Below are positions 1 through 36,972 of a DNA stretch of 37,515 nt, piece by piece. This DNA is from a virus. Under the pieces are notes generated by a model. The model saw nothing but the letters and a program-made list of their open reading frames with translations. It searched no databases and was not told the DNA's origin. The stretch covers positions 1 through 37,515 of IMG/VR virus record IMGVR_UViG_3300033388_002657, one strand, 5' to 3'. Numbering within the stretch: the first letter of the stretch is position 1; each line of letters opens with the position of its first letter. The translations under genes and the position numbers were made by a program.

Positions 1-653
1 TCAAGCTCAGATTGTATTCTACCAGAAGGAAATATATTGTCAACTATCTTCATTAAATCTGGATCATCTAGAGCTCTTTCTTCCACTTTAAGAGTTTTAT
101 CGTTTATATAAGTTATAAAAGCCTCATAAACACCATCAGTTGTCTTCTTTAATTCAACTACTGCTTGAGCGCCGGCTATATTATATTGTTTTGCTAACTC
201 TGGAAAGAATGTTACTATGTCACCACTTGCTACCTTCTTACCTTCTCTAGCTATAATACCTGAGCTTTCTAACTGCGCTGCCGTTAATTCTGAGGTGTAA
301 TCTATAAAGGCTTTCTTTCTTGGAAATATTCTTTTTAGAATTTCAGAACCTATAACATCCTCTGGCGTAACATCCTCCAATAGTCTGCCTCTATTCACCT
401 CTGCTATTTTAGGTTCTATTTCTATTAATAATTCAAATCCTTTTCTGAGCTCTGGATCAGCTAATAGTCTAGCTATGGTATCTCTATCCAGACCCTGAGC
501 GCCTTCGAATTTAAAAATTCCGGCCAGTGTTCTTTTAAAATCAGTAGCTGTCTCATCGTATATCTTTTTAACTTTACCTAGAGCATCCTGTAGCTTAGCA
601 ATATCCTGATCAAAGGCATCGCTCAGTGGAAATTTTTCTCTTAGTGTTAACAA
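1..653 (-). CDS. Tape measure protein, C-terminal piece (partial, runs off left edge)
   Basis: An open frame of about 217 codons runs without a stop to the window edge. The only standard start available is TTG at 653, because a TAG at 669-671 closes the frame upstream. No good Shine-Dalgarno site sits in front of it: the nearest AGGA is about 20 bases away. The product is hydrophilic, helical and charged, like the preceding giant protein, and matches no enzyme family I recognise. It overlaps nothing but follows the TGA of the large upstream piece at 655-657 directly. Dropping one A from the AAA run at 658-660 fuses it in frame with that piece, so I read it as the continuation of the tape measure, not a separate gene. 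Its true end is outside the window. Confidence is high that it is coding and moderate that it belongs to the tape measure chain. Confidence 0.7.
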   Translation of the reverse strand, partial: MLTLREKFPLSDAFDQDIAKLQDALGKVKKIYDETATDFKRTLAGIFKFEGAQGLDRDTIARLLADPELRKGFELLIEIEPKIAEVNRGRLLEDVTPEDVIGSEILKRIFPRKKAFIDYTSELTAAQLESSGIIAREGKKVASGDIVTFFPELAKQYNIAGAQAVVELKKTTDGVYEAFITYINDKTLKVEERALDDPDLMKIVDNIFPSGRIQSEL

Positions 654-654
654 C

Positions 655-668
655 TCATTTAACTGACA
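655..668 (-). other. Frame junction C in tape measure region (+1 or one extra base)
   Basis: The third piece ends GTT AAA TGA. Removing one A from 658-660, or a +1 slip with TGA in the A site, continues into NELLTLREKF. No internal Shine-Dalgarno stimulator at the spacing used by prfB is visible. Confidence 0.55.
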
Positions 669-3600
669 CTAAGTCCTGTAAGACAGGGCCCACTCCGGGT
701 ATCTCACCTAAAGCTGTTTTTATAGTGTTAGATATACCAGCTCCCAACCCAGTGTCAGTTAGAGACTCTACGTATTTTTTTAGAACATCTATATCTGTCT
801 TGGCTAATTCTAAAGAACTGGCTCTCTGAATAGATTCTATATAAGATTTATAATTACCAGTAAGTCTAAGGATAGCATCGCCCTGCTCATCATACCCTAT
901 TACTAGCTTACTGTTAGTTTGTGCTAACTCATTGCCCAACTTTGTGGCGTCCTCTTGTACTTTAGCCAAAGCTAATAGAGGTGCTGTGTAGTTATCGGAG
1001 TCTGAGCGTTTTTCTCTAAGTCCAGGAGTAGATACAAGCTTATTAATTTTTTCTAATCTCTTTTGTAACCTATCGTACTGTCTATTAGAGTTTGTTAATT
1101 CCTTTATCTGATCTTCTTCTACTCTTCTTGCATTATATACTGACTGTGCATACTGCTGTGCGCTTTTTCTACTTCTATCTAATGAACCAGCCACTCCCCT
1201 AAGAGCAAGGCCCATAGTACCTAATGTAATAGCAAGAGGAGCTATAGATTTAAAAAGAGTTGGATCAGTTCCGGCCATAAATTCTGCTACTTTCTGGCCA
1301 GTTTTACCAAATAGTTGGCCAGACTTTTCTATAGCATGTCCGGTACCCTTGGCTAGAGATTCCACTATTTGTGTACCAGCTGAAACAAACGGTGCGGTAG
1401 ACAGACCTAACAGTTGAAATACATCTGTACTATAATCTATAATTCTAGCAGTATTTTTAAATTTCCGGCCAAAATTTTCTATACCTTTACCGGCACCTTC
1501 GGCGCCTTTACCTGTAGCTTCTAAAAATGAATTGTATGCGTCGCCAGCAGATTTTATAGAAAAGACCAACTTACCGAAACCAGAATGTAAATCATCCAAT
1601 CCGCCTACTTTCAGATCTGACGGAGCTCCCTTAGCAAAAGTCTTCAGACCCTTTACTGGATCGCCGAAACCCTTACCAAATATTTCAAAATTGGCCATGC
1701 CAAATTCTTTTTGTATTGACTTTACAAAATTACCTACTGCAGACTCACCTCTGCTGAAAGTTTCTTGAATACCGTCAAATATAGCAAGCCCCTTAGAGGC
1801 ATAAGTAAAAAACAACCCAAGAGCAACGCCCGCTGCCTTTACTGGAGCAGGTATAGCAGACATCAACTCAAGTACAATCTTAAGAGCCTTCAAACCCGTC
1901 TTGAACACTGGAAATACGAAACCACCTAGTTGTAATTTTAACTCAGTAGCAGCAGCCTTGGTTTGCTCTAATTGTTTAGAGTAAGTCTTCATAACCTCAA
2001 GATTACGTCTTTCTGCCGAACCCTTAGAGTTTGTACTATCTTCTATAGCATCCAGTACTTCATCCCAATTATCCATGGCCACTAACAATGCATTGTATTG
2101 TCGTGTACCACCAATAGACTGTGCCACATTAAGTTTCTGAGCATTTGTCAATTCATCCCATTTCATAGACAAATCACTTAGAATATCAAAACCTCTTCTA
2201 TTTTCTCCTGTACCAGTTACAGTAGGAATCCCTATGCCAGCTAGTTCTTTTGGTCCCTTCTCAGAGAACAATCTTCTGGCTATGAATCTCATAGCTGTAC
2301 CAACTTCCTTACCGGTCTGGCGAGTAACAGCACCTATACCGGCCACAATACCATTTAACTCATTGAATGTGAATCCAGCATTCTTAGCGGCCGCTGCTGA
2401 TTTTTTAATAGCATTAGCCATATCGCCAGCGGTAATAGCGTGCCTGGCTTCTGTCTCACTCCACGCATCCAGTGCCATATCAGCACTACCAAGTTCATTA
2501 CCATATACTTTCATGGCGGCGGTTAAAGCTTCTGTAGCATCACCGGCTGATAAAGTTGTAACGTTAGATGCTAAAGTAGATACTCTGGCTCTATCTATAA
2601 CCTCAGACTGCTTTAATCCTTGTTGAGCAAAGAGCTTCATACTAGCCAAAACATCTCTTACTCCAACACCATATGACTTAGCAAAATCTACCGCAGAGTT
2701 TTGAAGGCCAACAAAGTCAGTCTCTAACGGATTCATGACCATTCTAAGCTGAGCCAAGCCCACTTCTATATCAGCAAGTTCACCTATAGAATCTTTAAGT
2801 GCCTGCACACCACCATATACTAAGGTAGCTGCCGCGCCCCACATTATGACACGTTTAGCAGCAGATCTAAATGTACCACCAGACATATGCATTTTATCTA
2901 TTAAATCTGTTTGTGTTTCTGAAAACTGACCCACAGCCCTACCAGAGTCATCGACAGTTTCTCCGTATTTCTTGAAGTCTACTCTAACATTCTTCATTAC
3001 ATTACCGGCTTGATCAGTAACTTTAATGAATTGACTGAAAGATTCGCCTACTTTAGGGCCACCCTCAGCTTCTGGTCTCGCTGCAAACTCTCTAAATTTT
3101 TGGGTATTTCTTCTTTGTAAAGCCTGTTGCTGGGCAGGAGGTAAAAATCCAGGAACTTTAATAGCGCCTGTTTCATATTCCCCAAAAGGACCTTTTTGTA
3201 ATCTATCTAGATCTATTCGGCCGTATACTTGTTCTATTTGTTTAAGGTACTGAAGTAATGAGCGCACCTGAAATTTTTTCTCGACATCTACTTGAAACTC
3301 ATCGGACAATGTTGATCTGGAAAACTGAGATAACGCCTCCCTCAACACTCTGGCTCTTTTAGCCATCTTATCAAAATCCCAAGCATCGGTAGCATCTTTA
3401 CCCATCCTTTCAAATAAATCTGCGTCCTCAAGAACAGCCTGGGCTTCCTTATCCAAATCTGCCAGTTGTTCTACTATCTTTCTAATCTCATCAGCCGGTG
3501 CTCCTAAAGTTCCGGCCTCTAATTTATCTTTTAAATCCTTATAAACACCTCTTGTGAACTCATCATCACCAAAAGGTTCAGCGGATCTTTCAAATATTTC

Positions 3601-6600
3601 TCTTGGAGATGCAAACACGCCAGCTTCTTCAGCTTTTTCTGGTAATAAGAATCTTCTATCTCTAGTGTAAATATCAGATTTCTTACCTAAACTTTTTCTT
3701 ATGAATCCCTTTTGACCAACTAATCTCTCTATTGACTGTTGGAATGCACTAAATTCTCTAGTGCCGGTGCCTTGCTGACTGGCTAAATCAAAGGATTGTT
3801 CGGCTTCTTTGGCTTGTTGAATCAAAAAATCTCCCATGGCTATACGCCATAGTTTATAGGCAGTTATAGATTCTTGAAAGGTTATAAAACCACCCTGAGT
3901 TAGCTTTGATATTATGTCAGTAAATTGTGGACCCGTAGGAACTGTTTTTCCTTTAGCAAGAGCTCCCTGGATCTCCGTATGCATTTTACTAAGGGTATTA
4001 TCAAAATCTAAACCTGATAATTGTGCTTGTAAAATTATAGAACCATCGTGTAATTCTTGTATAGCCTGAAATTGTGTTTTAAGAGGTTCTATAAAAGATG
4101 CTACTTTCTCCTTTGATGGTATACCAACAGTAGATCCTTGGCCTCCTCCGCCAGCTGCGGCAAACTGAGAAGGATCTATACTACCATAATCTGGCGCATT
4201 TCTCATACCCTGGATGCTCTGTGCAGCCGCATTAGCCTGAGTAGATGATTTACTATAATTAATTTTTATTTCTTTGTATACATTTGCCTGTCCCTGCTGA
4301 AAACGAAATACTTTATCGGAAAGATTTACAAAATCATTTATAAATTTATCAGAGTGTTCGACTACCCCAAACATATCATCAAGTTCTTCTTCTAGTTGAA
4401 ATGATTCTAGAGTCCTAGACACACTTATACCAGGGGTTTTACCAGACACTGAGTTTCTTAACTTTTCTACTAATGCTCTGTGTTCTTCTGGTACATCCTT
4501 TAATTCTACATCCAAGCGCTGAACATACTTTGAAACTACATCTCTGGCTTCCTGTAATGTTTCTAAGTCTTGCTTTAAACGAGCTTCATCAAATGAGAAC
4601 GTTACAGATTTGGCAGGTGTCTTGAGATCTATATCTTCCGAAGGTATAAAATCTATCTGAGCTATTAAATCATCAGCTAATTTAGGACCGCCCTTCTTTT
4701 TAGATTGTTGCCTCAACGCTGCCAAATAAACATTTAACTGTGTCCTATATTCTTCAAGTTTCTGTCTAATATGACCAGGTATATCTTTGTCAAGAAGATC
4801 TGATAATTCTATAGTACCTTCAGGTATTAATTTAGATATAGTTTCAAATTTAGCAAAAGTTTCGCCTGTGGTTTTAATATCAGAGATCTTTTCGATCTCA
4901 CCTAAAGCATTTTTATATGTTAAATCTATAAAGCCTGTGATGGGCCCTTCTATGGCCTTCACAAATTCTTGTGGGTTTAGATGAACAAATTTTTCTATTT
5001 CTACGGTTTCTTCAAGACCCTCAAAGTCCTTTTTTATCTTTCTCTGTAATTTAGCGTGTAAGGCTGATCCTATATCAAAAGCAGCTTGTGTGGACGGATC
5101 TAATTGTTTTTTAGTTCCTACTGGCAAATCTCCAGACTCTGTATCTACTAGATTCTTAGCTATAGCCTCTAGTTGAGATTTACGCCTATGACCAGCAGTA
5201 GGATCTTTTACATCTTTAAGAATCGCGCCTACGTCTTCGCCGCCGGCTTTAAACTTACTACCACTGAATGTTTTTAAAGTAGTAGTAAAAAATTTCCGCT
5301 TAAGTTGTTCATAATTATCCGGGCTGGTGTCAGGAAAATATTTCTCCTGGAGTCCTTTAAATTTAGGATCTTCAAATCTACCAGCATGTCTATCAAACCC
5401 AGCGTCTACATCTTTGAAATTTTCTTTTATCTTATCTTGTATCTTTCTAATGGCATCAGCACCATGCTGATCCATTTTAGCTCTCATCTTATCCAACTCA
5501 TCCATAGCCAACTGTTGTGGGATAAAATCTGGATTAAGTTGACCCATTAAATCTGCGCCGCCAGTTGGGGCAGGCCCACCGCCGAACATAATACCCACAT
5601 CATTAGCTATACTATGGATATGTACAGGAACTATCCCGCCTCCCATAGGAAACATACCGCCCACACCACCTACACCAGTACCACCTGTGCCAAAAATACT
5701 TCCCTGGCCGGCAGCAGGTCCATATAGACCTCTTTGAGATTCCCTTTTGGCCTGGCCGTGGACACCTATATCAAACATATCCGGTGCAAATTTATAACTT
5801 TTCTTTATATCATCAGGCTTTGGCACCTGACTTGAAGTTGGAAACAAAGATAATAAAGTAGTCCCTTCTTTTGCCCTAGTAGCTAGAACATCCAATACTC
5901 TATCCATTTCATATACTACAACAGCAGCATCAGATAGTTTTATGGCATATTCTTCAGCCTTTTTATTTATATCCTCTAAAGAAAGATCCTCATCACCGGC
6001 ATATTTCTTCTCGCCTATTTTCCTAAACTGACCTAGCAAACCCGAAGTTACATCTAATTTTTCCTCACGACTTAGAGTAGGAACTCCAACTAAATCAGCT
6101 AAACGTTCTATTTCTTTAGTCTGGTTTTCTGGGCTCTTTGAAATAATATCCTCAACCAGAGATGGTATTTCTTTACTTTCAGACACCCTAGCAACCAAAT
6201 TCTTCATGTAAGATTCAGCTTCCTGGTCTCTGGCTACAAAAGCACTTCCTCCCAGCTTATTATATTCACTCTCAATTTCTTCCTGATCACGTTTGATATT
6301 GTCAAGGGTGCTTCTTACTAACTTACCGTAAGCTCCTCTATCATCTCTACTAACTGCGTCAGCAAAAGCATCTTGTATATTCTGTGCTGTGGCCTTGGCC
6401 TCTCTATACTGCTTTAATATACCTTCTGTCTCTTCAGCGCCCTTTCTTAAAAATTGTACACTAGATGGTACTGTAGGCTTTCCATATTTCTCACTAAACG
6501 TTTTGACCTGACTGCTAAGATTAGGTGAAGTTCTCAATGAATATAAAGGTAACTGTGGAGCAGTAACATGCTCTCTTATATTTATACCACCTTCCTCTAT

Positions 6601-9036
6601 TTCTTTTTTCACTTGTGATCTAGCAAAAGATTCAGGGTCACCTATTCTACTGCGTTTTTCTGGAGAATATTGAGATACTTGTTTAATTATACCCTCAATA
6701 GCAGCTTCTTTAACTTGAATTGCCATTTCATCTAGGAATGATTTAAGTCCAGTAGCTTCTACTGCTAATTTTATTATCGCATCTCTATCTGATCTTGCCA
6801 ATTCTGCAGGACCATGCTCAGATTGGCCTCTAGCTTCATACAAAGAAACTAACTCTTTTCTTATAGTATCTGTTGGCAATCCTCCCAATCTTTGTCTAGA
6901 AGTTTTTTCTATTACCTTAGAAAAATCCAACAACTGTGAGTAATCAGATTGACTTTCGTCCATTATCATGGACCACAATTCCTCAACCCCTTGTGCTCCT
7001 CTAGATAAATTAGCCACCAATTCTGTAGCTACAGTGGCACTACCACCCTTTTTTACATCCTGTCCTTGCTGCATCGCAAATCTAATTGACTCACTAAGTT
7101 TAGCATAGAAATCTTCTATAACCGCTTGCTGAGACCCGCCCGTAATTTGTAAACTAGGATTACGAGCAAGGAAAGCTTTAGAGGGCTCAGCTGCGCCTTT
7201 ACCAACATTTGTTGCGCCGGTACCAAAACCAACATTAGATTCAGCCAATCTACCTACACGATATAGACCTTCAACTTGTATACCAGCCTGAACTTTAGCC
7301 AACTGAGCTTCTACTGCATTTTGAAATTTAGATTCAAATACCTTACCTGTTATAGATTCTTCTAATTGAGCAGCATAAGATGTGGATAAATCCTCATCGA
7401 CTTTCTCTATAGCCATGAACAATTCGTCAGCAAATTTTGTCCTAGTTTTAGTATCTCCCCTTTTAGTAACCGATTCTACCTCAGTCTTAAGATCTACAAA
7501 AGGAGACTTAACAGAAGCTATAGCATTTTCAAGGGCCTCTTTAGTCTCATCTGCAACTTCTATACCTGAAAAAGATTCAGATAGAGCATCCTCCAACGCC
7601 GCGCGTATACCTCCGGCGCCTAAACCTAATATACTTAATTTTTCTGCCTTGCCAGCGTATTCTAAAGTGGGCTGATCTTCTCCGGCTACAGCTTGTCCTG
7701 TGAGATATGGTTTAATTAGAAAATCAAAGCCCTGACCCTCACCGACTTTTTTAATAAAAATTTCCTGCATCTCTGCCAGAATAGCAGTTCCAGAAGGCTT
7801 CCAGGCGTTAAGAGCATCAGCAGTAAAGAATGTTCTATATGCCTCCTGCAAACCTTCCTGGGCTCCCTCCTCTCCTTTACCAAACTCAGCCACAGTTTGA
7901 TAATGTTTTTTTATTTCCTGACGCGACTCCTCAAGGCGAGCTGTGTGTACAGCTATAGAGTCACCGTCAAAGTCTAATTTAGAAGTATGAGCCGCATACT
8001 TAGGTGTAACTTCAGAAACAGCTTTAGCTAAACTATTCATTAACTTTGTTAATCTTTCTACTTCAGCTTCTTGGCCTGCGTCTAACGGGGTGCGAGATAT
8101 ATCAGAAGCCTTAAAAATCTCATCTCTTCGTTTACTTAAAACATCAATGATACCTTCTGTAGGACTTTTTATCTTCTCATTAAACTCACCTATATCAAAA
8201 TCAGAGGTGCCGGGAACAACAAAAGATTTGCTAGCTCTCTGATTTAACTTACCACCCAATAACTTAGCTTTATATGGTACAAGAGATGATGGACCAGTGA
8301 TAGGATATCGTACACTTTCCACAAACGGATTAGTTCTCTCTAATTCAGATTCAGCTAATGCTTTTGCTTCTTGAGCTGATTCCAAATCAGCAAATTTAAG
8401 TTTACCTACTTTAGCAAATGGATCTCCTTTTTTAGGAGTAACTTCTCTTGCAGCATTATTTACTAGAATATTTAAATTTTGTATATATTTTAACAGATCA
8501 AAAAGATTACCTTGTACTATCTTTCCACTATCTTCGGCTTTTTCTACAAACTTTCCAGAAAAATCAAGTTCTTTAGAAAAATCTACTGGAAGTTTTTTAG
8601 CTGTAACAGTTGGAATACCCAACTCATGTTGCTTCAGAACTGGGAAACCAGCTTTAATTTGTTTAGCTATTTTTTCGCCATGTTCTTTGGATAATTTATC
8701 TATATCTGTTATAACTCCAGCTAAAGTGTCTTGTTCAGCAGCCGGTAAGTTTTGTTGTATGTTTTTTAAACTATCTCTAAATTTAGCAAAGTCCTCAGTT
8801 TTATCCACTATACCAACAGTAGCTTTTTTCATCACTGCCGGAAACTTACGTGAGAATACAGCTGTACCAATAGCACCCTTTTTACCTATTGCTGTTTGAG
8901 CTAATGAATGAAAATAAGATATCTTGGCTTTCTGTAAATTATCCAGAGCTTTCTCATATTTGAACTGTAGCTCTCTATCAATGTCTATACCCAATCTAGA
9001 TGCTAATTCCAAGCCGCGGCCGGATTTTATATCCAT
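655..9036 (-). CDS. Giant tape measure piece with RNAP beta'-like motif, PD-(D/E)XK nuclease motifs and TP901 core
   Basis: This 2,793-residue piece carries several modules. Near the N-terminus, R243-x-P245 and then D355-F-D-G-D359 followed by SIAVH match the catalytic double-psi beta-barrel of RNA polymerase beta' subunits; a DVKKG stretch at 660-664 may be trigger-region sequence. A Gly-rich linker lies at about 1085-1160. Residues about 1300-1480 hold RecB/Cas4-type nuclease motifs: GSALH (H1327), GFID (D1371), DIKTT (D1386, K1388) and QLNVY (Q1433, Y1437). The phage TP901 tape measure core, with a hydrophobic helix near 2060-2080, spans about 2060-2340. Two more hydrophobic stretches (about 2396-2418 and 2596-2618) suit a membrane-inserting tail protein. 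Seen directly: motifs and order. Known: these motifs define those families. Inferred: the protein sits in the tail lumen and is ejected. The ATG at 9036 has no clear Shine-Dalgarno site and overlaps the previous piece by 41 bases, so it may not be a real start. Confidence 0.9.
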   Translation of the reverse strand: MDIKSGRGLELASRLGIDIDRELQFKYEKALDNLQKAKISYFHSLAQTAIGKKGAIGTAVFSRKFPAVMKKATVGIVDKTEDFAKFRDSLKNIQQNLPAAEQDTLAGVITDIDKLSKEHGEKIAKQIKAGFPVLKQHELGIPTVTAKKLPVDFSKELDFSGKFVEKAEDSGKIVQGNLFDLLKYIQNLNILVNNAAREVTPKKGDPFAKVGKLKFADLESAQEAKALAESELERTNPFVESVRYPITGPSSLVPYKAKLLGGKLNQRASKSFVVPGTSDFDIGEFNEKIKSPTEGIIDVLSKRRDEIFKASDISRTPLDAGQEAEVERLTKLMNSLAKAVSEVTPKYAAHTSKLDFDGDSIAVHTARLEESRQEIKKHYQTVAEFGKGEEGAQEGLQEAYRTFFTADALNAWKPSGTAILAEMQEIFIKKVGEGQGFDFLIKPYLTGQAVAGEDQPTLEYAGKAEKLSILGLGAGGIRAALEDALSESFSGIEVADETKEALENAIASVKSPFVDLKTEVESVTKRGDTKTRTKFADELFMAIEKVDEDLSTSYAAQLEESITGKVFESKFQNAVEAQLAKVQAGIQVEGLYRVGRLAESNVGFGTGATNVGKGAAEPSKAFLARNPSLQITGGSQQAVIEDFYAKLSESIRFAMQQGQDVKKGGSATVATELVANLSRGAQGVEELWSMIMDESQSDYSQLLDFSKVIEKTSRQRLGGLPTDTIRKELVSLYEARGQSEHGPAELARSDRDAIIKLAVEATGLKSFLDEMAIQVKEAAIEGIIKQVSQYSPEKRSRIGDPESFARSQVKKEIEEGGINIREHVTAPQLPLYSLRTSPNLSSQVKTFSEKYGKPTVPSSVQFLRKGAEETEGILKQYREAKATAQNIQDAFADAVSRDDRGAYGKLVRSTLDNIKRDQEEIESEYNKLGGSAFVARDQEAESYMKNLVARVSESKEIPSLVEDIISKSPENQTKEIERLADLVGVPTLSREEKLDVTSGLLGQFRKIGEKKYAGDEDLSLEDINKKAEEYAIKLSDAAVVVYEMDRVLDVLATRAKEGTTLLSLFPTSSQVPKPDDIKKSYKFAPDMFDIGVHGQAKRESQRGLYGPAAGQGSIFGTGGTGVGGVGGMFPMGGGIVPVHIHSIANDVGIMFGGGPAPTGGADLMGQLNPDFIPQQLAMDELDKMRAKMDQHGADAIRKIQDKIKENFKDVDAGFDRHAGRFEDPKFKGLQEKYFPDTSPDNYEQLKRKFFTTTLKTFSGSKFKAGGEDVGAILKDVKDPTAGHRRKSQLEAIAKNLVDTESGDLPVGTKKQLDPSTQAAFDIGSALHAKLQRKIKKDFEGLEETVEIEKFVHLNPQEFVKAIEGPITGFIDLTYKNALGEIEKISDIKTTGETFAKFETISKLIPEGTIELSDLLDKDIPGHIRQKLEEYRTQLNVYLAALRQQSKKKGGPKLADDLIAQIDFIPSEDIDLKTPAKSVTFSFDEARLKQDLETLQEARDVVSKYVQRLDVELKDVPEEHRALVEKLRNSVSGKTPGISVSRTLESFQLEEELDDMFGVVEHSDKFINDFVNLSDKVFRFQQGQANVYKEIKINYSKSSTQANAAAQSIQGMRNAPDYGSIDPSQFAAAGGGGQGSTVGIPSKEKVASFIEPLKTQFQAIQELHDGSIILQAQLSGLDFDNTLSKMHTEIQGALAKGKTVPTGPQFTDIISKLTQGGFITFQESITAYKLWRIAMGDFLIQQAKEAEQSFDLASQQGTGTREFSAFQQSIERLVGQKGFIRKSLGKKSDIYTRDRRFLLPEKAEEAGVFASPREIFERSAEPFGDDEFTRGVYKDLKDKLEAGTLGAPADEIRKIVEQLADLDKEAQAVLEDADLFERMGKDATDAWDFDKMAKRARVLREALSQFSRSTLSDEFQVDVEKKFQVRSLLQYLKQIEQVYGRIDLDRLQKGPFGEYETGAIKVPGFLPPAQQQALQRRNTQKFREFAARPEAEGGPKVGESFSQFIKVTDQAGNVMKNVRVDFKKYGETVDDSGRAVGQFSETQTDLIDKMHMSGGTFRSAAKRVIMWGAAATLVYGGVQALKDSIGELADIEVGLAQLRMVMNPLETDFVGLQNSAVDFAKSYGVGVRDVLASMKLFAQQGLKQSEVIDRARVSTLASNVTTLSAGDATEALTAAMKVYGNELGSADMALDAWSETEARHAITAGDMANAIKKSAAAAKNAGFTFNELNGIVAGIGAVTRQTGKEVGTAMRFIARRLFSEKGPKELAGIGIPTVTGTGENRRGFDILSDLSMKWDELTNAQKLNVAQSIGGTRQYNALLVAMDNWDEVLDAIEDSTNSKGSAERRNLEVMKTYSKQLEQTKAAATELKLQLGGFVFPVFKTGLKALKIVLELMSAIPAPVKAAGVALGLFFTYASKGLAIFDGIQETFSRGESAVGNFVKSIQKEFGMANFEIFGKGFGDPVKGLKTFAKGAPSDLKVGGLDDLHSGFGKLVFSIKSAGDAYNSFLEATGKGAEGAGKGIENFGRKFKNTARIIDYSTDVFQLLGLSTAPFVSAGTQIVESLAKGTGHAIEKSGQLFGKTGQKVAEFMAGTDPTLFKSIAPLAITLGTMGLALRGVAGSLDRSRKSAQQYAQSVYNARRVEEDQIKELTNSNRQYDRLQKRLEKINKLVSTPGLREKRSDSDNYTAPLLALAKVQEDATKLGNELAQTNSKLVIGYDEQGDAILRLTGNYKSYIESIQRASSLELAKTDIDVLKKYVESLTDTGLGAGISNTIKTALGEIPGVGPVLQDLVSVK

Positions 9037-9042
9037 TCTTAG
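8996..9042 (-). other. Frame junction B in tape measure region (+1 or one extra base)
   Basis: The second piece ends at TAG 8996-8998 and the third opens after a TAG at 9043-9045, so the two frames overlap here. The minus strand carries an AAAA run at 9025-9028. Removing one A gives a continuous reading from AKNGYK into SGRGLELAS. A lysine tRNA could also re-pair perfectly after a +1 slip on AAAA. Confidence 0.6.
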
Positions 9043-12000
9043 CTAAATTTTGTTTTTCTTGTAGAAGACTTAATATATTAGAAGGATCGCTAGTAACCTG
9101 GCCCTTAAATCTATTATCACCTAGTAGTAAAGTACTATACTGTTGTATATTTTCCAGGTTGCCGCTCGATAGCTCAGCTATACCTTTTAGTACAGTATTG
9201 TAAGCATCTTGTGCACTTGGGCCCTTACCTAATAATAAATCAGTAGCTTTACCTATAGCATCAGCTAAAGCTAAATTCTCTGTTTTAGCGGTTGACCTTT
9301 GACGTTCTAAAAAAGCCTCAACGTTGGCTACTTCAGATGCTCCAGGTGCCAATGGAGTTTGTCCTGCCGCGAAACTCTTTACTCTAAATGCCTCAGCTGG
9401 AATTTCATCCGGGGCTTGAGATGTAGATAATGCATTTTTAACTATTGTTAATATGTCATCTAATCTAGCAGTAGCTTCTGGAGTTTGTTTAAATTTTAAA
9501 GTTTGAGTTTCCTTTAAATACTCCGCTATCACATCCTTAACTCTTCTTTTTACTGTAGATGATACTTCACCCTCACCAGACAATAACGATTTTTGTACAT
9601 CCTGTCTAGAACTAAGTATTGCTTTGGTTTGAGCTGCTCTTGGATCGCCGGCGGACAATAACCCTTGTAACTCTTCTTGTAGAGTATCTATCTCTGCTTG
9701 TAGAGTAGCCGGTCTGTCCAAAAGCTCTGAAGCTTTTCTAGCCATATTAACTACATGCTGTAAGTTACGGCCTATTTTTTCAACTCCACGCTCGCCAGCT
9801 ACCACCTCCTCAGAATACGTACCTCTTGCTAAAGCTCCTGGAATATAAAAAGGATCTGTTTCTCCTGGTTGGCCGCCGGGAGAAGTTCTAGGTAGGTCAA
9901 CTAAAAAAGGTTTAGAGAATTTCTTTATATCGAATAATGTACCTTTTAAATCTCTGGGCTCATCAGTATCTTCCATTTTTGATAAAACACCGGTCGTCTG
10001 ATCAAAATATTTTATCTGATTTAAATTAACCCTTTCCAAATAATTCACTTGACGAGCCTGTAGAGTGCCAGTTTCGTCAGCCATGAATTGTAACGCCTTT
10101 AAAAATTCTAATTGTTTTCTTTGATTAGAATTGGTACTATCTACTATTTCTGATAGTAAGCTAGAATTTTCTCCGAACACAGTTGAATACGCAGACAACA
10201 CAGGAATATCTACACTAGCGCCTTTTTCTCCTCTACGTATATCTGATTTTTTCCACGGTTCAGTAGCGCCAGGTTCTTCCACAATAGATAAGAATTTAGT
10301 TCCTACAATACTCTTACGTTCCTCACCAAGCTCATCTATAATGGTGGTATAAAAATTAGATGCTTTCTCTATAGCCATAGCTCTTTGAGCTATGACTTTA
10401 GCTAGATCTGGATCTTTACCCTTCCCTAAGGCAAGGGATAATTCCTCAATGTCTTGCGCAGAACCTACAGTTTCAAAACCTAGAGCTTTAGAAAGTTTAC
10501 TAAACTCTCCAGTAGTCCTTCCACCACCTTCAGTTTTTTCTCCAAGTAGTTTCTTATAGACCGCTGGATCTAGCCTAGTAGCTATAGTAGTAGCCCCTCC
10601 AGCACCCACCGAAGCTATACTACCTAATACAGCCGCTAAAACTTCTGGCTGTAAACCACGTTTAGCTATACCAGTAGAACTAATTCTAACATCAATGGCC
10701 TGCTCTTTAAATACTCCAGCCTTAGGAAATGCCTTCTTAAATATACTTCTTATATCTTGTATGGCGGACTTATCTCCCGGCAATTCTCTACCAGTTAAAG
10801 TTTTGAAGGCTTCAGAAGCTTTACCAAAAATTTCCTGTTGCTTAAGGGCCTCTTCTGGAACAACCAAACCTTTCTCTGCATTTTTAAATAATTCAAATAT
10901 AAATTTATTACCTGATTCTTTAAGCTGAGCCCTTAAAGATACAGTATCAATTCCTTCTGATTCTAATTCCTTATTATGTTTAAACACTACACCAGATAAT
11001 AACTCTCCCATACTTCTTGGCAACAAAGCCACTCCCAAGCCTGCCTTTTCACGCTCTTTGCCGGTTAGAACTTTTACCTTAGCTTTAGGAAAAGACTTTA
11101 TTATATCTAAAGCATTACTGGCTTCTTCTTTTCCAAGACCGGTAGGAGTAACACTTACTCCTTTAGATCCATATCTAGATATAAACTTTCTACCAAAAGA
11201 ATTCAAAAAGACTTCAGTTAATCTGGCTTGCTGAACTTCTACAGGTTCTCCACGTAGAACTGTTATAGAACGTTTAATCTCATCTATAAAAGCCTGATCT
11301 GCGCGGCCTTTATATTGTTCTGGAACACCAAGTACTTCTTGTATTTCTCCAAGTACATTTTTAATATCTATGTCTTTTACTGCACCAGCCCTAACTTCTC
11401 CTACGTCAGCTGCTCCCTCTACACTACTACCTAAACGGCCACCTGGAGAAGGTCGCACTAAAGTTTTTGTAGCGGCAGTTAGAGCATCAGCTAATTTACC
11501 AGATACAAGAATCTGATCCTCCATAGTACCTGCAGTATTACGAAGCTCTGCTAATACATTAAAACCAAATCCCTTATCCCCCAATCTACCTGACGAAATT
11601 AACTCCGACTCCCTACCTGACCTCAAACTAGGAAATTCTGTTCCATAACCTTCTAAGCTAGTAGCTCCAAATTTACCGGCCATAGCATCTAATTCTGCTT
11701 TAGAAGCCTCTAAAGCATTAGTAACACCAGATATATTCTTACCTAAATTATTAAACTGAGCTCCAAGAGGAGAAAGTTCTGAAAGCACATCAGTATATAA
11801 TTGAGTAGATATTCCTCCCAGGGCAGCTAGATGTTGCTGACCGGGCTTTGTTTGTCCTGGTCTAAGAAAATCTACTTTAGCAGCAGTTGACTCTGTAACA
11901 CCTAGAGTAGATATAGAACGTATACCCTCGTTTAAAATATTTTCATTGTTTATAACCGCTTCTTTTACTATTTCATTAAGTCTTATATTTAAATCTTTTA

Positions 12001-12340
12001 TATATTTAAGCTGAGCTTCTGGTTTGAAATCAGTAGGTTTCTGACCAGCATATACATCTGACGTTCTTGAAAGAAGATTTAATACTTTATCCTGTTGAAA
12101 TCCTCTTCTAGGTCTTCCAGGTTCTATAAGAGGTAAAGATTGAACCACATTTTTATATACTGCTGATTCATAATCCCTTATTCCTTTATCAAATGTTGGA
12201 TTAGTAGCTAGATTTTTTAATGGCTCTGACTTTCCTTCTATACCTTTTACAACCTTAAGTATTATATCATACACATTTTCAAATTCTATTTTGTCGAGGC
12301 TCTTAACAACATCGTACGCCGATAAGCCTGCTTTTTTCAT
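8996..12340 (-). CDS. Tape measure region, second piece; possible RNA polymerase beta-side sequence
   Basis: A 1,114-residue, mostly helical and charged protein with no signal peptide. The ATG at 12340 lacks a Shine-Dalgarno site at a usable distance. Its frame stays open and protein-like upstream to 12412, inside the previous piece, so the real N-terminus is probably the upstream piece joined by a frame correction. Two short stretches resemble the catalytic-lysine region of RNA polymerase beta subunits: RYGSKGV (R389, K393) and RRGEKGASVDIP (K706). Both are weak on their own and I cannot choose between them. A later stretch around FYIPGALARG precedes a coiled region. Because the next piece carries the beta'-type DFDGD motif, a beta-like half here would make sense, as beta and beta' halves are fused in phage and RNAi-type polymerases. 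That assignment is inference. The coding call itself is firm. Confidence 0.85.
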   Translation of the reverse strand: MKKAGLSAYDVVKSLDKIEFENVYDIILKVVKGIEGKSEPLKNLATNPTFDKGIRDYESAVYKNVVQSLPLIEPGRPRRGFQQDKVLNLLSRTSDVYAGQKPTDFKPEAQLKYIKDLNIRLNEIVKEAVINNENILNEGIRSISTLGVTESTAAKVDFLRPGQTKPGQQHLAALGGISTQLYTDVLSELSPLGAQFNNLGKNISGVTNALEASKAELDAMAGKFGATSLEGYGTEFPSLRSGRESELISSGRLGDKGFGFNVLAELRNTAGTMEDQILVSGKLADALTAATKTLVRPSPGGRLGSSVEGAADVGEVRAGAVKDIDIKNVLGEIQEVLGVPEQYKGRADQAFIDEIKRSITVLRGEPVEVQQARLTEVFLNSFGRKFISRYGSKGVSVTPTGLGKEEASNALDIIKSFPKAKVKVLTGKEREKAGLGVALLPRSMGELLSGVVFKHNKELESEGIDTVSLRAQLKESGNKFIFELFKNAEKGLVVPEEALKQQEIFGKASEAFKTLTGRELPGDKSAIQDIRSIFKKAFPKAGVFKEQAIDVRISSTGIAKRGLQPEVLAAVLGSIASVGAGGATTIATRLDPAVYKKLLGEKTEGGGRTTGEFSKLSKALGFETVGSAQDIEELSLALGKGKDPDLAKVIAQRAMAIEKASNFYTTIIDELGEERKSIVGTKFLSIVEEPGATEPWKKSDIRRGEKGASVDIPVLSAYSTVFGENSSLLSEIVDSTNSNQRKQLEFLKALQFMADETGTLQARQVNYLERVNLNQIKYFDQTTGVLSKMEDTDEPRDLKGTLFDIKKFSKPFLVDLPRTSPGGQPGETDPFYIPGALARGTYSEEVVAGERGVEKIGRNLQHVVNMARKASELLDRPATLQAEIDTLQEELQGLLSAGDPRAAQTKAILSSRQDVQKSLLSGEGEVSSTVKRRVKDVIAEYLKETQTLKFKQTPEATARLDDILTIVKNALSTSQAPDEIPAEAFRVKSFAAGQTPLAPGASEVANVEAFLERQRSTAKTENLALADAIGKATDLLLGKGPSAQDAYNTVLKGIAELSSGNLENIQQYSTLLLGDNRFKGQVTSDPSNILSLLQEKQNLAKNGYKIRPRLGISI

Positions 12341-12369: not shown

Positions 12370-12415
12370 TTAATTCTGCGGGCTGTAAGGTCTGACCAAC
12401 ATTAGATGATAGTTA
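12370..12415 (-). other. Frame junction A in tape measure region (-1 or one missing base)
   Basis: The first piece ends at TAA 12370-12372. The frame of the second piece opens at 12412, just after an out-of-frame TAA, and encodes protein-like sequence (SSNVGQTLQPAELNKATTEL) for 24 codons before its first ATG. Adding one A to the GTTAAC at 12412-12417 would join both. No X XXY YYZ slippery heptamer is visible. Confidence 0.6.
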
Positions 12416-14997
12416 ACAGAAGCAAAATCTAAAAGAATCTCCTCGGCTAATTTATTAGCAGCATCTAAGTTTAGACCTGTAGGACGTATACCTATTTTTC
12501 TAATCTTTTCGGCATAACCCTTACTGTACACCAAAGCCTGTTTTTCGGCCAATTCGTCATATAATGTTTCAAATCCGGTTTTAAAAGTACCAAATTTCTG
12601 CAGCGATCTTTGACTACCTTTGGCTGTCTCAAAAACAGGGGTACCTGTTTTTGTCAGTCTAGCTGCTGGTAAACTTACAGTCCTAATTAATTTCTTATCT
12701 CTTAAATTTTTAGTAGCTTCGGCTTTACCTACTGTGGCCTTAAAAACTATTTCCAAATCCTGTCTATCTTTAGCTATCACACTAGCCAATTTCTTTTTTA
12801 AAGCATCACTGGGTAGTATTCCTGCTGATAAATCGCCCCTCTTTATGTTTATAAGGTTACTTTGAATTCCCTCCAATTCTTTTATAGATCTAATTTGCTC
12901 TTCAGAAGTAGACTTAAGCCACTTAGCTACCTTATCAATGGCAGCTCCTGTGTTAGGTAACTTGCTAGATATTTCAGTAGATATAGCATCCGTAAGTTCT
13001 CTTACCATAGACGCAGGAGTACCTTTGGTAGCAGCTCCTCTACCTTTTAATCTAAGTTGTTTCTTTATTGCTTCTATATTAGCTATATCAAATCCGAACT
13101 GTTTGCCGGACGTTTTAATATTAGAACCTTCTATAAGTTTAAAATATTCCTGTATACTTTTTTCAGTCCCTTCCCGTACCACTGCCCAGCGCTTACCTCC
13201 GGCTTCAAATTCTTTAGCCATGGTATCAACAATATAATCTTGTAATTCAAATAAAGAAGATGATAAATCGTTTATATGATCTTGAACAAGCTGTTTTTGT
13301 CTTTGTTGTCCTTTAGTGGCACTACCCTCAAATTTTAAATTTAGACCAGCCTTACTAGCAGGCAGTGCTACCTCTGGATATGCATTTATTGAGCTAGGAC
13401 CTCTCAACCTAGAGTTCATTATCTGTATACTCTTGACTAACGGACTAATATCTCTAGAACCAGGATCAGTAGTTTGAAGTGGTGCTTGTGGCGGTTGCTT
13501 GGCTGCTTCCTTTAGAGCCTCAGCGGCGGTATTAAGTTTATTGGTAGCATCTTTCAGGCCAGCAACGATTTCTTTATCAGATTCTTGTGGCGGTTTGTTT
13601 ATTTTTTTCTGTACATCATTAATTAGAATTCTTAGTTGATCTAATTTTTTTGAATTTGCGCCTGTTGGAGTCCGGCCTGCGGCCTCTTTAATATCTGTAG
13701 GCTTAAAAGATTCTACAGCCTTAACTAAAGAATCAAAATCTTTACTAAAATTCTCAAGCACTGATTTATCTTTAGTACCAGCTTTAACTTCTTTTGAAAT
13801 ATTAACTAACTCTGTTTTACTTTCCTTACGTATATCATTAATAAGTTTAACTATTTCTTTAAAGCTTTCTTTAATAATCCTACCTGTATCAGTAGACTTA
13901 GTTGTACCTGTAGTAACAGACTTAGTATTCTTATAAACATTCTCTAACTGTTTACCTAAATTATCAACCTTCTTATTAGTACCCTTTAGGGTAGTGTCTA
14001 GTTGTTTGATATCTTTTGAAGCAGGAGTTTTAAGTGGTGCTTTTTTAAGTTCCGCGGGAATAGATTTAACTATTCTATCAAATCTATCAAGAAAATCCTT
14101 AGCTACAAGCTTCCAATTTTTAGGATCTATAAGTTCGGGAGCTCTTTGTGTAACAGCTCTAGTCTTCTGACCAATAGACTGTTTCAATTCTCCTATAGCT
14201 CCAGAGACTTCCCTCATTATATCTTTCTGGTCTTTGGCTAAAAGTTTAACAGATCTACTTAGTTCTTTAAAATCATTATTTACATTTTTTACTTCCCTGG
14301 CAAATGTACCCAATGACTTAAGTGCTTGAGGAACTTCCTTAACATCTATTCCTCCGCCAGATTTCTTTAACTTAGAAAAAGAATCTAAAGCTTTTACAGT
14401 AGCGTCCAGACCTCTACTCAATGATTCCACGGTTCTGTTTAAATCCTTTATAGCAGAACCAAACTCTTTAGATACTACTCCTCTCAAAGATGCACCAATG
14501 GCATTAGAGAGAATTTTTACGCCTTGTGGGGACAGTTCAACCCCCGCCTTGGACAAAGCTGTATTAACAGCTCCAACCATTCCACCTATTTTTCTATCTA
14601 CAGACTTAAATATAGTTTCTAACTCTTTACTATTTCCAGCCTGTCCTGGTTTTACTTTCTTGAGTTCTTTAAGGAGAGAATTGGCAGCCTCTACAGATAT
14701 AGTTTTAGTAGCATCTTTTACTATTCTACCAATTTCTTGATTAGAAACACCACCGCCAGACTGACCACCGGGCTGGTGTCTTATTATTTCTCTTACTAAT
14801 TTGGTGAGAACCTTATCAAATTCCGTATTAATAGTCTTAGCTAACTTAGCATTAGTATCCTTAGCTATCTTTTCATAAACTTTGCCTATCTTACTAGCTA
14901 GCTTATTCTCATCTATTCCTACAGATTTTGAAGGTCTTCCAGCACCACCGCGGGAACCTTCCCCAGTGATGTTGTGATTGATGGTGTAGTCTGCCAA
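12370..14997 (-). CDS. Tape measure region, N-terminal piece (TTG start)
   Basis: An 875-residue, lysine-rich, strongly helical protein with many heptad-like stretches, as expected for the N-terminal part of a tape measure. The start is TTG at 14997, chosen because a GGGAGGTG Shine-Dalgarno sequence lies 7 bases upstream; this is the only one of the four tape measure pieces with a convincing ribosome binding site. It follows the second chaperone-like gene, the usual place for a tape measure. The last 14 or so residues (after FASVN) look unlike the rest, while the -1 frame from 12412 reads as normal protein and leads straight into the next piece. The annotated C-terminus is therefore probably an artefact of a frame break. 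No enzyme motif recognised. Tail location is inferred from position and composition. Confidence 0.85.
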   Translation of the reverse strand: MADYTINHNITGEGSRGGAGRPSKSVGIDENKLASKIGKVYEKIAKDTNAKLAKTINTEFDKVLTKLVREIIRHQPGGQSGGGVSNQEIGRIVKDATKTISVEAANSLLKELKKVKPGQAGNSKELETIFKSVDRKIGGMVGAVNTALSKAGVELSPQGVKILSNAIGASLRGVVSKEFGSAIKDLNRTVESLSRGLDATVKALDSFSKLKKSGGGIDVKEVPQALKSLGTFAREVKNVNNDFKELSRSVKLLAKDQKDIMREVSGAIGELKQSIGQKTRAVTQRAPELIDPKNWKLVAKDFLDRFDRIVKSIPAELKKAPLKTPASKDIKQLDTTLKGTNKKVDNLGKQLENVYKNTKSVTTGTTKSTDTGRIIKESFKEIVKLINDIRKESKTELVNISKEVKAGTKDKSVLENFSKDFDSLVKAVESFKPTDIKEAAGRTPTGANSKKLDQLRILINDVQKKINKPPQESDKEIVAGLKDATNKLNTAAEALKEAAKQPPQAPLQTTDPGSRDISPLVKSIQIMNSRLRGPSSINAYPEVALPASKAGLNLKFEGSATKGQQRQKQLVQDHINDLSSSLFELQDYIVDTMAKEFEAGGKRWAVVREGTEKSIQEYFKLIEGSNIKTSGKQFGFDIANIEAIKKQLRLKGRGAATKGTPASMVRELTDAISTEISSKLPNTGAAIDKVAKWLKSTSEEQIRSIKELEGIQSNLINIKRGDLSAGILPSDALKKKLASVIAKDRQDLEIVFKATVGKAEATKNLRDKKLIRTVSLPAARLTKTGTPVFETAKGSQRSLQKFGTFKTGFETLYDELAEKQALVYSKGYAEKIRKIGIRPTGLNLDAANKLAEEILLDFASVNYHLMLVRPYSPQN

Positions 14998-26529: not shown

Positions 26530-26796
26530 TTATAATGCTAATAGTTCATTTATTTGTGATTGTAAAGCTCCTGATAATGTTGTTATCAAAGCATCCACCT
26601 CTGCTTGTGTATACAGAGCTTCTCCGTTTCCGTATAAAGCATCAGCATATATCGAACCTGTGCCGGATATAGTTCCATCCTGGAAATTTAAAGTTCCACT
26701 TGTGACAAGATTAACATGGACTTCATTATCATGTTCTGACTCTGTTAAAACGTCAGCATCTCTCATCTGGTCTGCTCTAAGTAAAGCTCTTGCCAT
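26530..26796 (-). CDS. Short fibre / trimerisation protein
   Basis: An 88-residue protein. I place the start at ATG 26796, which overlaps the previous stop as TAATG and has a GGGAGAGAG site just upstream; a GTG at 26811 in the same frame is the site's own sequence and less likely. It carries a LNFQDGTISGTGSI strand and the YTQAEVDALITTLSG helix that also occurs twice in the LamG protein. That helix is a common trimeric coiled-coil stalk in phage fibres. Probable adaptor for the larger fibre next to it. Confidence 0.65.
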   Translation of the reverse strand: MARALLRADQMRDADVLTESEHDNEVHVNLVTSGTLNFQDGTISGTGSIYADALYGNGEALYTQAEVDALITTLSGALQSQINELLAL

Positions 26797-27332
26797 TAAT
26801 CTCTCTCCCACTCAAAGATTGTTTCAAAATCACTATCGTATCTTAAAGACTCATCATCAATATCATCTGGTTCTATTGCGGCCCAACTTAAACCACCAAA
26901 TCTTACACCAGCTACTGAGTCATAACAGAAGGCTACTAGACTTGAACATATCTGTTGTTCTGGATCTTTGATGCGTCGAGAAAAGTAGTTGTTACTAAAT
27001 AACTGGTCAAATAATTGCAAGCCTATTCTGATCCAACTATAGCTCAATCCCACCATACTCTTGGCTTTATCTGCCATCTCTTGACGTTGCTCATCTGTTA
27101 GATTTTTGTGTCTGATTATTTTATATCTTTTGAAATCTTCAAATCTTTCTCTTGTTATGTTTATCTCAACCTTAAGTAGAGCTTCCACACAACACTCATC
27201 ATCTATCACTATCATAACATGCTGGTACTCTACTGGGTCTTCCTGAAAAAACCTTAACGTGGCAAGGATGGCTTTACTAAACCAACTATTCTTATCCGCT
27301 GTTATGATTATATCCGCCGGCTTTAATATCAT
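26796..27332 (-). CDS. Permuted NlpC/P60 (YiiX-like) papain-fold enzyme
   Basis: A 178-residue protein with the layout of the YiiX/YebB branch of NlpC/P60. An N-terminal PADIIITAD segment is followed by YQHVMIVI with H38, VEALLKV with E50, a LTDEQRQEMADKAKSMVG helix, and ICSSLVAFCY with C129. In this family the Cys and His are the catalytic pair in a circularly permuted papain fold, acting on amide bonds such as those in peptidoglycan or lipids. The Asp/Glu at 45-50 may complete it. It is coupled by TAATG to genes on both sides, inside the fibre block, so it may be a virion-bound wall hydrolase used at entry, though membrane or lipid substrates cannot be excluded. Family call firm, substrate unknown. 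Confidence 0.7.
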   Translation of the reverse strand: MILKPADIIITADKNSWFSKAILATLRFFQEDPVEYQHVMIVIDDECCVEALLKVEINITRERFEDFKRYKIIRHKNLTDEQRQEMADKAKSMVGLSYSWIRIGLQLFDQLFSNNYFSRRIKDPEQQICSSLVAFCYDSVAGVRFGGLSWAAIEPDDIDDESLRYDSDFETIFEWERD

Positions 27333-35904: not shown

Positions 35905-36972
35905 TTATAGTGAGCGGTCAATGACGCCCAGTCCGAGGTTTCTCGGATCTAGACATGCGAAACCAATTTCTGCCCATCCAAAGAAACCTTGTTTCTGGAC
36001 ACGTAGCAGAGTTGGATCGTCATGCGCTTCATATTCTTTACGGATCGGCATAACCAGTGAATCATTCACGGTAAGATCAAATGCCATTACCTGAGTTTCT
36101 CCCAGTGTAGCAACAGTACCATCAGCAGCGGTCAAATTAGGATTATCAAGTGTATAACCATTATAAGTGTTACCTACGCCAGTCACAAACTTTCCAAATT
36201 CTGAACCATAACCATTGATATTGTACAGACCGGTTGCTCCCAGATGCTGTACTTCATGCAATGCGACATTCCAAATACTACCCATGCCGGCTGCCTGAAA
36301 GATCTCACGCCTCGTTACAGGATCGATATCTGTATCGGTCCATTCACGAATGTCTGCCGCATCTTCTGGAGATACGTACAGATCGGTAAGTGTTCTACCA
36401 ATTCTCTTAAAACCAACCATCATCTTATTGATGAGTTCCTTCGACAAGTAACCAGCACCTGTAGAAGCAGGATTGATTTCATAAATTGGCGCTGGGCGAG
36501 AACCCAACAGACCCTTACCAGAGAAAGACGAAGTCGCTGCGGGCATAATAACGCGCCAGCCACACTCTTCCTCGTAGTTTGCCAGATCTTTAGCTACACG
36601 AGCTGCCGATCTTTGAGCAATATCAATTCGTGAATCACGTGCGTATGTTATCTTCCAATCAGCGGAAGCATTTATAGCAAATGTTGGAACATAAACTTCT
36701 TCTCCAATACCTTCGATGAAGTTCTGAGCCATGTAACCCAATCCAGGTAAAACCCAGACAGGAATCTCAAAGTCCTCAGCGACCGGATAAACGGCCTGAG
36801 CACCTGGAGCCAGTCTCTCCACAGCAAACATGCTGCGCATAATAGACTCTAGCTCGATCTTCTGAAGGATGGGAGTTGTGATAGCGGCCGCGAATGCCCT
36901 AAAAGCTGCCTCGCCCTCTGGTCCGGCTTCTGCGGTTGCTCTAAACAGTTCTTGCATTTCCTTTAGTTCCAT
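35905..36972 (-). CDS. Major capsid protein (HK97-fold likely)
   Basis: A 355-residue protein. The N-terminus is an acidic helical arm; then a region with RSMFAVERLAPGAQAVYPV and the E-loop-like stretch, a spine-helix-like segment (QRSAARVAKDLANYEEECGW, about 120-139), a P-domain helix (SKELINKMMVGFKRIGR) and a C-terminal beta part ending GFFGWAEIGFACLDPRNLGL, typical of HK97-fold capsids. The size suits a 35-40 kDa mature subunit. No prohead protease or scaffold gene is in the window, so they should lie to the right. ATG 36972 has AGGAGG about 9 bases upstream and its own leader after a terminator, as expected for the most abundant virion protein. Confidence 0.8.
   Translation of the reverse strand: MELKEMQELFRATAEAGPEGEAAFRAFAAAITTPILQKIELESIMRSMFAVERLAPGAQAVYPVAEDFEIPVWVLPGLGYMAQNFIEGIGEEVYVPTFAINASADWKITYARDSRIDIAQRSAARVAKDLANYEEECGWRVIMPAATSSFSGKGLLGSRPAPIYEINPASTGAGYLSKELINKMMVGFKRIGRTLTDLYVSPEDAADIREWTDTDIDPVTRREIFQAAGMGSIWNVALHEVQHLGATGLYNINGYGSEFGKFVTGVGNTYNGYTLDNPNLTAADGTVATLGETQVMAFDLTVNDSLVMPIRKEYEAHDDPTLLRVQKQGFFGWAEIGFACLDPRNLGLGVIDRSL

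Follow-up and report, generated by a model that had tools for sequence, protein, structure and literature searches.

A probable virion RNA polymerase within the tail tape-measure protein of a family of uncultured phages

The tape-measure locus

The window analysed here, a 37,515-base IMG/VR virus record (IMGVR_UViG_3300033388_002657), carries on its minus strand a tail tape-measure gene whose product very probably includes a virion RNA polymerase; that this polymerase is active and is packaged in the virion is proposed by analogy with the Thermus phage P23-45. In the window the chain is split over four reading frames. Its pieces are listed below from the N-terminal end onwards, with the alignments to two close relatives, G001 and G002; the latter is a 115-kilobase (kb) contig with an uninterrupted tape-measure open reading frame (ORF) of 8085 residues. 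E denotes the expect value.

12370-14997, minus strand: ORF of 875 residues, the N-terminal tape-measure segment upstream of the polymerase; aligns in one frame to G002 residues 1-871 (49% identity).
8996-12340, minus strand: ORF of 1114 residues, the β-type polymerase half and the start of the β′-type part; aligns to G002 residues 904-2024 (59% identity) and is kept in 28 loci.
655-9036, minus strand: ORF of 2793 residues, the β′-type polymerase half, a nuclease module and the tape-measure core.
4723-5070, minus strand: RecB/Cas4-like PD-(D/E)XK nuclease module (GSALH, GFIDL, SDIKT, QLNVY), residues 1323-1438 of the 2793-residue ORF; matches phrog_1706 (E 1.2e-4) and PF12705 (E 0.0036).
2107-2700, minus strand: tape-measure core, PhageMin_Tail, residues 2113-2310 of the 2793-residue ORF; matches PF10145 (E 1.5e-21).
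3-653, minus strand: next piece of the tape-measure chain, leaving the window edge; counterpart of G002 residues 4791-5052, with 81% identity in the alignment to G001.

The 2793-residue ORF also matches phrog_4211 (E 2.2e-78), and its tape-measure core lies downstream of a DFDGD motif in the same frame. As read from the sequences of intact relatives, a single polypeptide contains, in order, the N-terminal segment, a β-type catalytic region (an ED segment and two lysines), a β′-type region (R-x-P, DxDGD and D-x-K) and the tape-measure core, usually with a RecB-like nuclease ahead of the core.

A family of tape-measure proteins

A first scan returned one relative of the window chain, and a search with the motif pattern returned a second, G002. 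Queries built on the conserved upstream region (alignments A3, A6 and A7) then yielded 11, 28 and 50 loci in succession, all of them on IMG/VR virus contigs. The sequence-only reading of the window had proposed a polymerase joined in frame upstream of a tape-measure core. The fusion is real, being continuous in uninterrupted ORFs of 7,477-8,654 residues in 12 relatives on larger contigs, but frame breaks interrupt the copy in the window. The 26 loci that span both catalytic sites are 35-65% identical to the window and have both motifs intact; in the wider scan the strict motif pair is present in 41 of the 50 loci, and most of the remainder are truncated, have a broken frame or have diverged further. 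Two scans of GTDB genome contigs returned no relative, nor did a search of the phage collection INPHARED (50,697 records) with four family members as queries, in which there was a single non-significant match of 53 residues (E 0.3).

We also observed a distant relative on a 545-kb contig (L131 in G024, approximately 290003-332533), in which an open frame of 14,712 residues contains a DFDGD region; the β lysine motif and the tape-measure core were not identified in this frame, which, if real, would be among the largest phage proteins. Read by eye, three very divergent ORFs (L132-L134) retain LDFDGD together with ED and R-x-P segments, and their lysine segment is degenerate. Their sequences suggest that the family is wider still.

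Catalytic motifs of two polymerase halves

The segments equivalent to active-centre elements of cellular RNA polymerase are as follows, again in the order of the chain.

11498-11566, minus strand: β ED segment GFNVLAELRNTAGTMEDQILVSG, residues 259-281 of the 1114-residue ORF; E274 and D275 invariant; HHalign match to β.
11156-11194, minus strand: β lysine segment GRKFISRYGSKGV, residues 383-395 of the 1114-residue ORF; K385, R389 and K393 invariant; HHalign match to β GDKMAGRHGNKGV.
8584-8649, minus strand: GFPVLKQHELGIPTVTAKKLPV, counterpart of a 20-residue β′ segment; second collinear HHalign match, E 0.0087.
8257-8310, minus strand: R-x-P segment RYPITGPSSLVPYKAKLL; R243, P245 and G248 invariant in the alignment of relatives.
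7939-8001, minus strand: KYAAHTSKLDFDGDSIAVHTA, with the catalytic aspartate triad D355, D357 and D359; identified by invariance, PF00623, HHalign and fold register.
7042-7071, minus strand: QQGQDVKKGG; Q656, G658, D660, K662 and G665 invariant in 18 members.

DFDGDSIAVH occupies residues 355-364 of the 2793-residue ORF (window 7945-7974, minus strand), with DFDGD at 355-359 (7960-7974) and SIAVH after it, and eight of its ten letters are identical to DFDGDQMAVH of E. coli β′, exactly as the sequence-only reading had stated. The best of 60 codon-shuffled windows reached five of ten, and GAYTTYGAYGGNGAY has a single match in the whole window record. That reading had also pointed to an R-x-P segment ahead of the loop and a DVKKG segment after it; both are present, with RYPITGPSSLVP beginning at residue 243 and DVKKGG at residue 660, and the motif is conserved in relatives of the phage: R243, P245, G248, D355, D357, G358, D359 and H364 are invariant across the 26 loci. 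By its placement, the QQGQDVKKGG segment is a possible bridge-helix or trigger-loop element.

The catalytic lysine of the first barrel had been sought at GKKG, within residues 51-71 of the same ORF. We rejected this candidate, in which only G51 is invariant and one close relative has GKEG; since the lysines are not invariant there, the β half is placed upstream, in the 1114-residue ORF. Its ED segment contains EDQILVSG. The E. coli β counterparts are a stretch of 24 residues for GFNVLAELRNTAGTMEDQILVSG and GDKMAGRHGNKGV for GRKFISRYGSKGV, and E813/D814 and K1065/K1073 of E. coli β belong to the active centre. The patterns GRK[FL]..R.G.KG and D[FY]DGD are kept in every copy among the 26 loci, separated from lysines to aspartate triad by approximately 1,050 residues in the two closest relatives and by 835-1,050 across the family. 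All 13 positions that correspond to known residues of the active centre fall within the 90 invariant columns, for which the hypergeometric chance is approximately 1e-17.

Profile and structure comparisons

Searching with Pfam, we observed that PF00623 (Rpb1 domain 2) matches the aspartate region in 11 of 21 members, while every other Pfam family matches two at most. It matches this region in both G001 and G002; weaker matches occur in 14 more tape-measure ORFs, and in the genomes of relatives E is as low as 1.2e-5. For the β half, comparison of the family profile with single polymerase sequences gave too weak a signal, and family profiles were substituted. With HHalign, the family profile matches the β′ profile at DFDGD (E 6.6e-6), with a collinear match at the start of the β′ barrel, and matches the β profile collinearly at the ED and lysine segments (E 0.005 and 0.014); the cross-controls of this β/β′ comparison fail, and in 100 shuffles of the template columns the highest scores were 21.3 and 24.1, compared with 46.7 and 30.4 for the real profiles. 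Searches of PDB sequences with long queries in phmmer and hmmsearch gave chance matches only, including AAC/APH at E 0.001, and PHROG matches to single family members were not used.

An AlphaFold model of one member (L019), built from an alignment of four rows, had a mean predicted local distance difference test (pLDDT) score of 44.6; that of another relative (L032), built from 21 sequences, had a mean of 65. Compared with the PDB in Foldseek, the best 50 matches of the L032 model are all RNA polymerase large subunits, as are 49 of the best 50 in VIA-align, where model residues 507-1033 match β′/RPB1. For E. coli 7mkq_D the aligned ranges end at 1035 and 501, so that model D994 falls close to D460 and the aspartates are in register. 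The alignment starts at approximately β′ residue 10-25 and, with moderate confidence, includes the clamp region. As to the two facing double-psi barrels, which had been suggested as the structural check, the β′ part of the model matches RNA polymerase folds and the β part is of low confidence; the proposed barrel of the β half draws its support from sequence. Among viral models, Foldseek gave weak polymerase matches, with several RNA polymerase subunits of nucleocytoplasmic large DNA viruses in the top rows and no clear phage match.

Relationship to known polymerases

The sequence-only reading had considered the fusion of a polymerase to a tape measure to be unusual, but there is a published precedent. 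Chaban et al. (2024) showed biochemically and structurally that gp96 of Thermus phage P23-45, a tape measure of 5,002 residues, contains an active polymerase found in virions; this polymerase is clamp-less and spans residues 327-1124, with DFDGD at 779-783, and the phage also has a free polymerase, gp64 (PMC10770324). Some contigs of the present family may already be listed in the survey table of viral polymerases in that paper. Like gp96, the family proteins are giant tape measures in which a polymerase with DFDGD, predicted to be of the two-barrel kind, precedes the tape-measure body in one polypeptide. They have no detectable similarity to it in sequence, and they differ from it in that the polymerase begins approximately 1,200 residues from the start of chains of 7,500-8,600 residues, has the cellular-type β motifs and the long lysine-to-aspartate spacing given above, appears to include a β′ N-terminal region, and is often followed by a nuclease module.

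As in P23-45, the fused polymerase is accompanied in some relatives by a free one. Two contigs, G004 (228 kb) and G019 (238 kb), each have a separate single-chain two-barrel polymerase, in frames of 1088 and 1180 residues (L054, G004:24060-26588; L135, G019, approximately 115457), which are 42.5% identical over the aligned part. That of G019 matches E. coli β (E 7e-8); that of G004 has no match in the phage collection. G002 and G003 have no other frame of at least 250 residues with a recognisable DxDGD-like polymerase motif.

The window protein had also been likened to the virion polymerases of crAss-like phages. Phage φ14:2 gp66 resembles the predicted enzyme of the family in being a single-chain two-barrel polymerase, reported to be packaged in the virion, but it is a separate protein and its DxDxD motif is DFDID. 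We found no profile similarity to it (HHalign score 17, E approximately 0.3, with the motif not the best match), and the family resembles a cellular β-β′ fusion more than gp66 or P23-45 gp96. With cellular β-β′ and with phage β-β′ fusions it shares the ED segment, K..R.G.KG, R-x-P and DFDGD in the same order, together with the β′/RPB1 fold match; the differences are that the family polymerase lies within a tape measure, is unrecognisable in overall sequence, has different spacers and has no match to PF00562. The phage fusions in this comparison are virus contigs with β and β′ in one ORF of 1,442-2,249 residues (L006, L007, L009 and L012, in G013, G014, G016 and G018).

Possible function and origin of the fused polymerase

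Several observations weigh against reading the locus as a virion polymerase. The PF00623 scores of the fused polymerases are all below the curated cut-off, and neither the window nor G001 or G002 has a match to PF00562. The structural matches are weak in absolute terms (best Foldseek E 2.7e-3 and none below 0.001, with a root mean square deviation of approximately 7.5 Å), the VIA-align Z-scores of 9-10.3 are close to values that unrelated helical models can reach, and in the β half of the L032 model, residues 1-200, pLDDT is mostly below 57. We nevertheless give the VIA-align result weight because the matches are uniform in identity and the register is correct. Most of the chain has no recognised sequence similarity to polymerases, as would be expected of an ordinary tape measure with a chance likeness to the β′ motif; such a likeness is extremely improbable, being ruled out in practice by the shuffles, the invariance in 26 loci, the independent β-half motifs and the fold matches. 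The window copy itself may be non-functional or mis-assembled. Its chain shifts frame at approximately 9040 and 665 relative to both close relatives and, relative to G002, also at approximately 12412, a region upstream of the end of G001. These are three small out-of-frame deletions, with approximately 12-33 residues of the relatives missing at each, and they could yield separate polypeptides or mark a decaying gene; one further contig (L092) is likewise frame-broken. However, the assembly of metagenome contigs commonly introduces small deletions, the close relatives have an unbroken chain, no such breaks are seen in those other window genes that have homologues in G002 and G003, and the catalytic residues are intact on either side of the breaks. 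We regard a dead or split polymerase in the window phage as unlikely. We consider it more improbable that the barrels are catalytic but serve another use, such as a DNA-pulling motor at genome entry or a primer-maker, or that they form a structural plug in the tail. The position of the polymerase within the tape measure would fit such roles, as would the hypothesis of the P23-45 authors that transcription accompanies DNA translocation through the pore (PMC10770324), but retention of all catalytic residues at 35-65% identity argues against a mere structural plug; the observations would fit transcription, a motor or primer-making, and the first two roles may coexist.

If the locus does encode a virion polymerase, its origin can be read in two ways. 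The family may belong to the same lineage as gp96, with one ancient tape-measure fusion having diverged past sequence recognition. The shared order, DFDGD and the local pattern R-x-P ... Y-A-x-x-T ... DFDGD are consistent with this, as are the HHalign match to gp96 (E 0.016 over 31 columns) and the pairing of fused and free polymerases in some members. However, tblastn of the family against P23-45, whose record is within the searched collection, gave no match, the family profile scores 34.3 to E. coli β′ and 22.7 to gp96, the latter off the motif, and the clamp-less gp96 contrasts with the cellular-type ED and lysine motifs, the long lysine-to-aspartate distance and the apparent β′ N-terminal region of the family; we hold a common fusion to be possible but doubtful. 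The absence of gp96 from the 50 VIA-align matches listed excludes nothing. The β motifs and the apparent β′ N-terminal region point to a fused cellular-type β-β′ enzyme rather than the gp96 lineage, and the cellular-type architecture therefore possibly reflects a separate fusion event. From these observations, we hypothesize, with about even confidence, that the polymerase-tape-measure fusion arose more than once, the widespread family having taken a cellular-type β-β′ enzyme with a β′ N-terminal part independently of P23-45 and using the tape measure to deliver a polymerase and a DNA nuclease alike.

By analogy with P23-45, the chain would lie in the tail lumen and be ejected at infection. 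The tape measure would then form a channel, and the two-barrel polymerase would transcribe the first phage genes during DNA entry with no need of the host polymerase; in some relatives, later transcription would pass to the free two-barrel polymerase. The nuclease would reach the newly entered cell together with the fused polymerase and act on DNA there. Shipping the first RNA polymerase in the tail ruler, hitherto a single known case in a Thermus phage and its close relatives, would thus be an apparently common strategy in uncultured large tailed phages. The family offers a diverse set of sequences for studying the passage of large enzymes through the tail lumen, transcription-aided DNA entry and the origin of host-independent early expression, and the nuclease module is a hint that several enzymes can be delivered together by a tape measure.

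The nuclease module and neighbouring genes

The nuclease module shares with RecB/Cas4-like nucleases (PF12705, phrog_1706) the motif series H, D, D-x-K and Q-x-x-x-Y, which is present in full in 14 of the 18 members aligned; the module was not found at the same place in the other four (L026, L040, L043 and L051). It differs from those nucleases in lying within a tape measure, with the polymerase before it and the core after it, and it scores 17.7 against PF12705, short of the curated cut-off of 22.

Among the head and tail genes of the window, we observed a protein (26796-27332, minus strand) matching phrog_1128, annotated as enoyl-CoA hydratase-like (E 9e-10). The major head protein (35905-36972, minus strand) has distant kin in Bacillus phage G and Tunturiibacter phage Tunturi_5 (E 2e-9 and 2e-5), both of which are jumbo phages.

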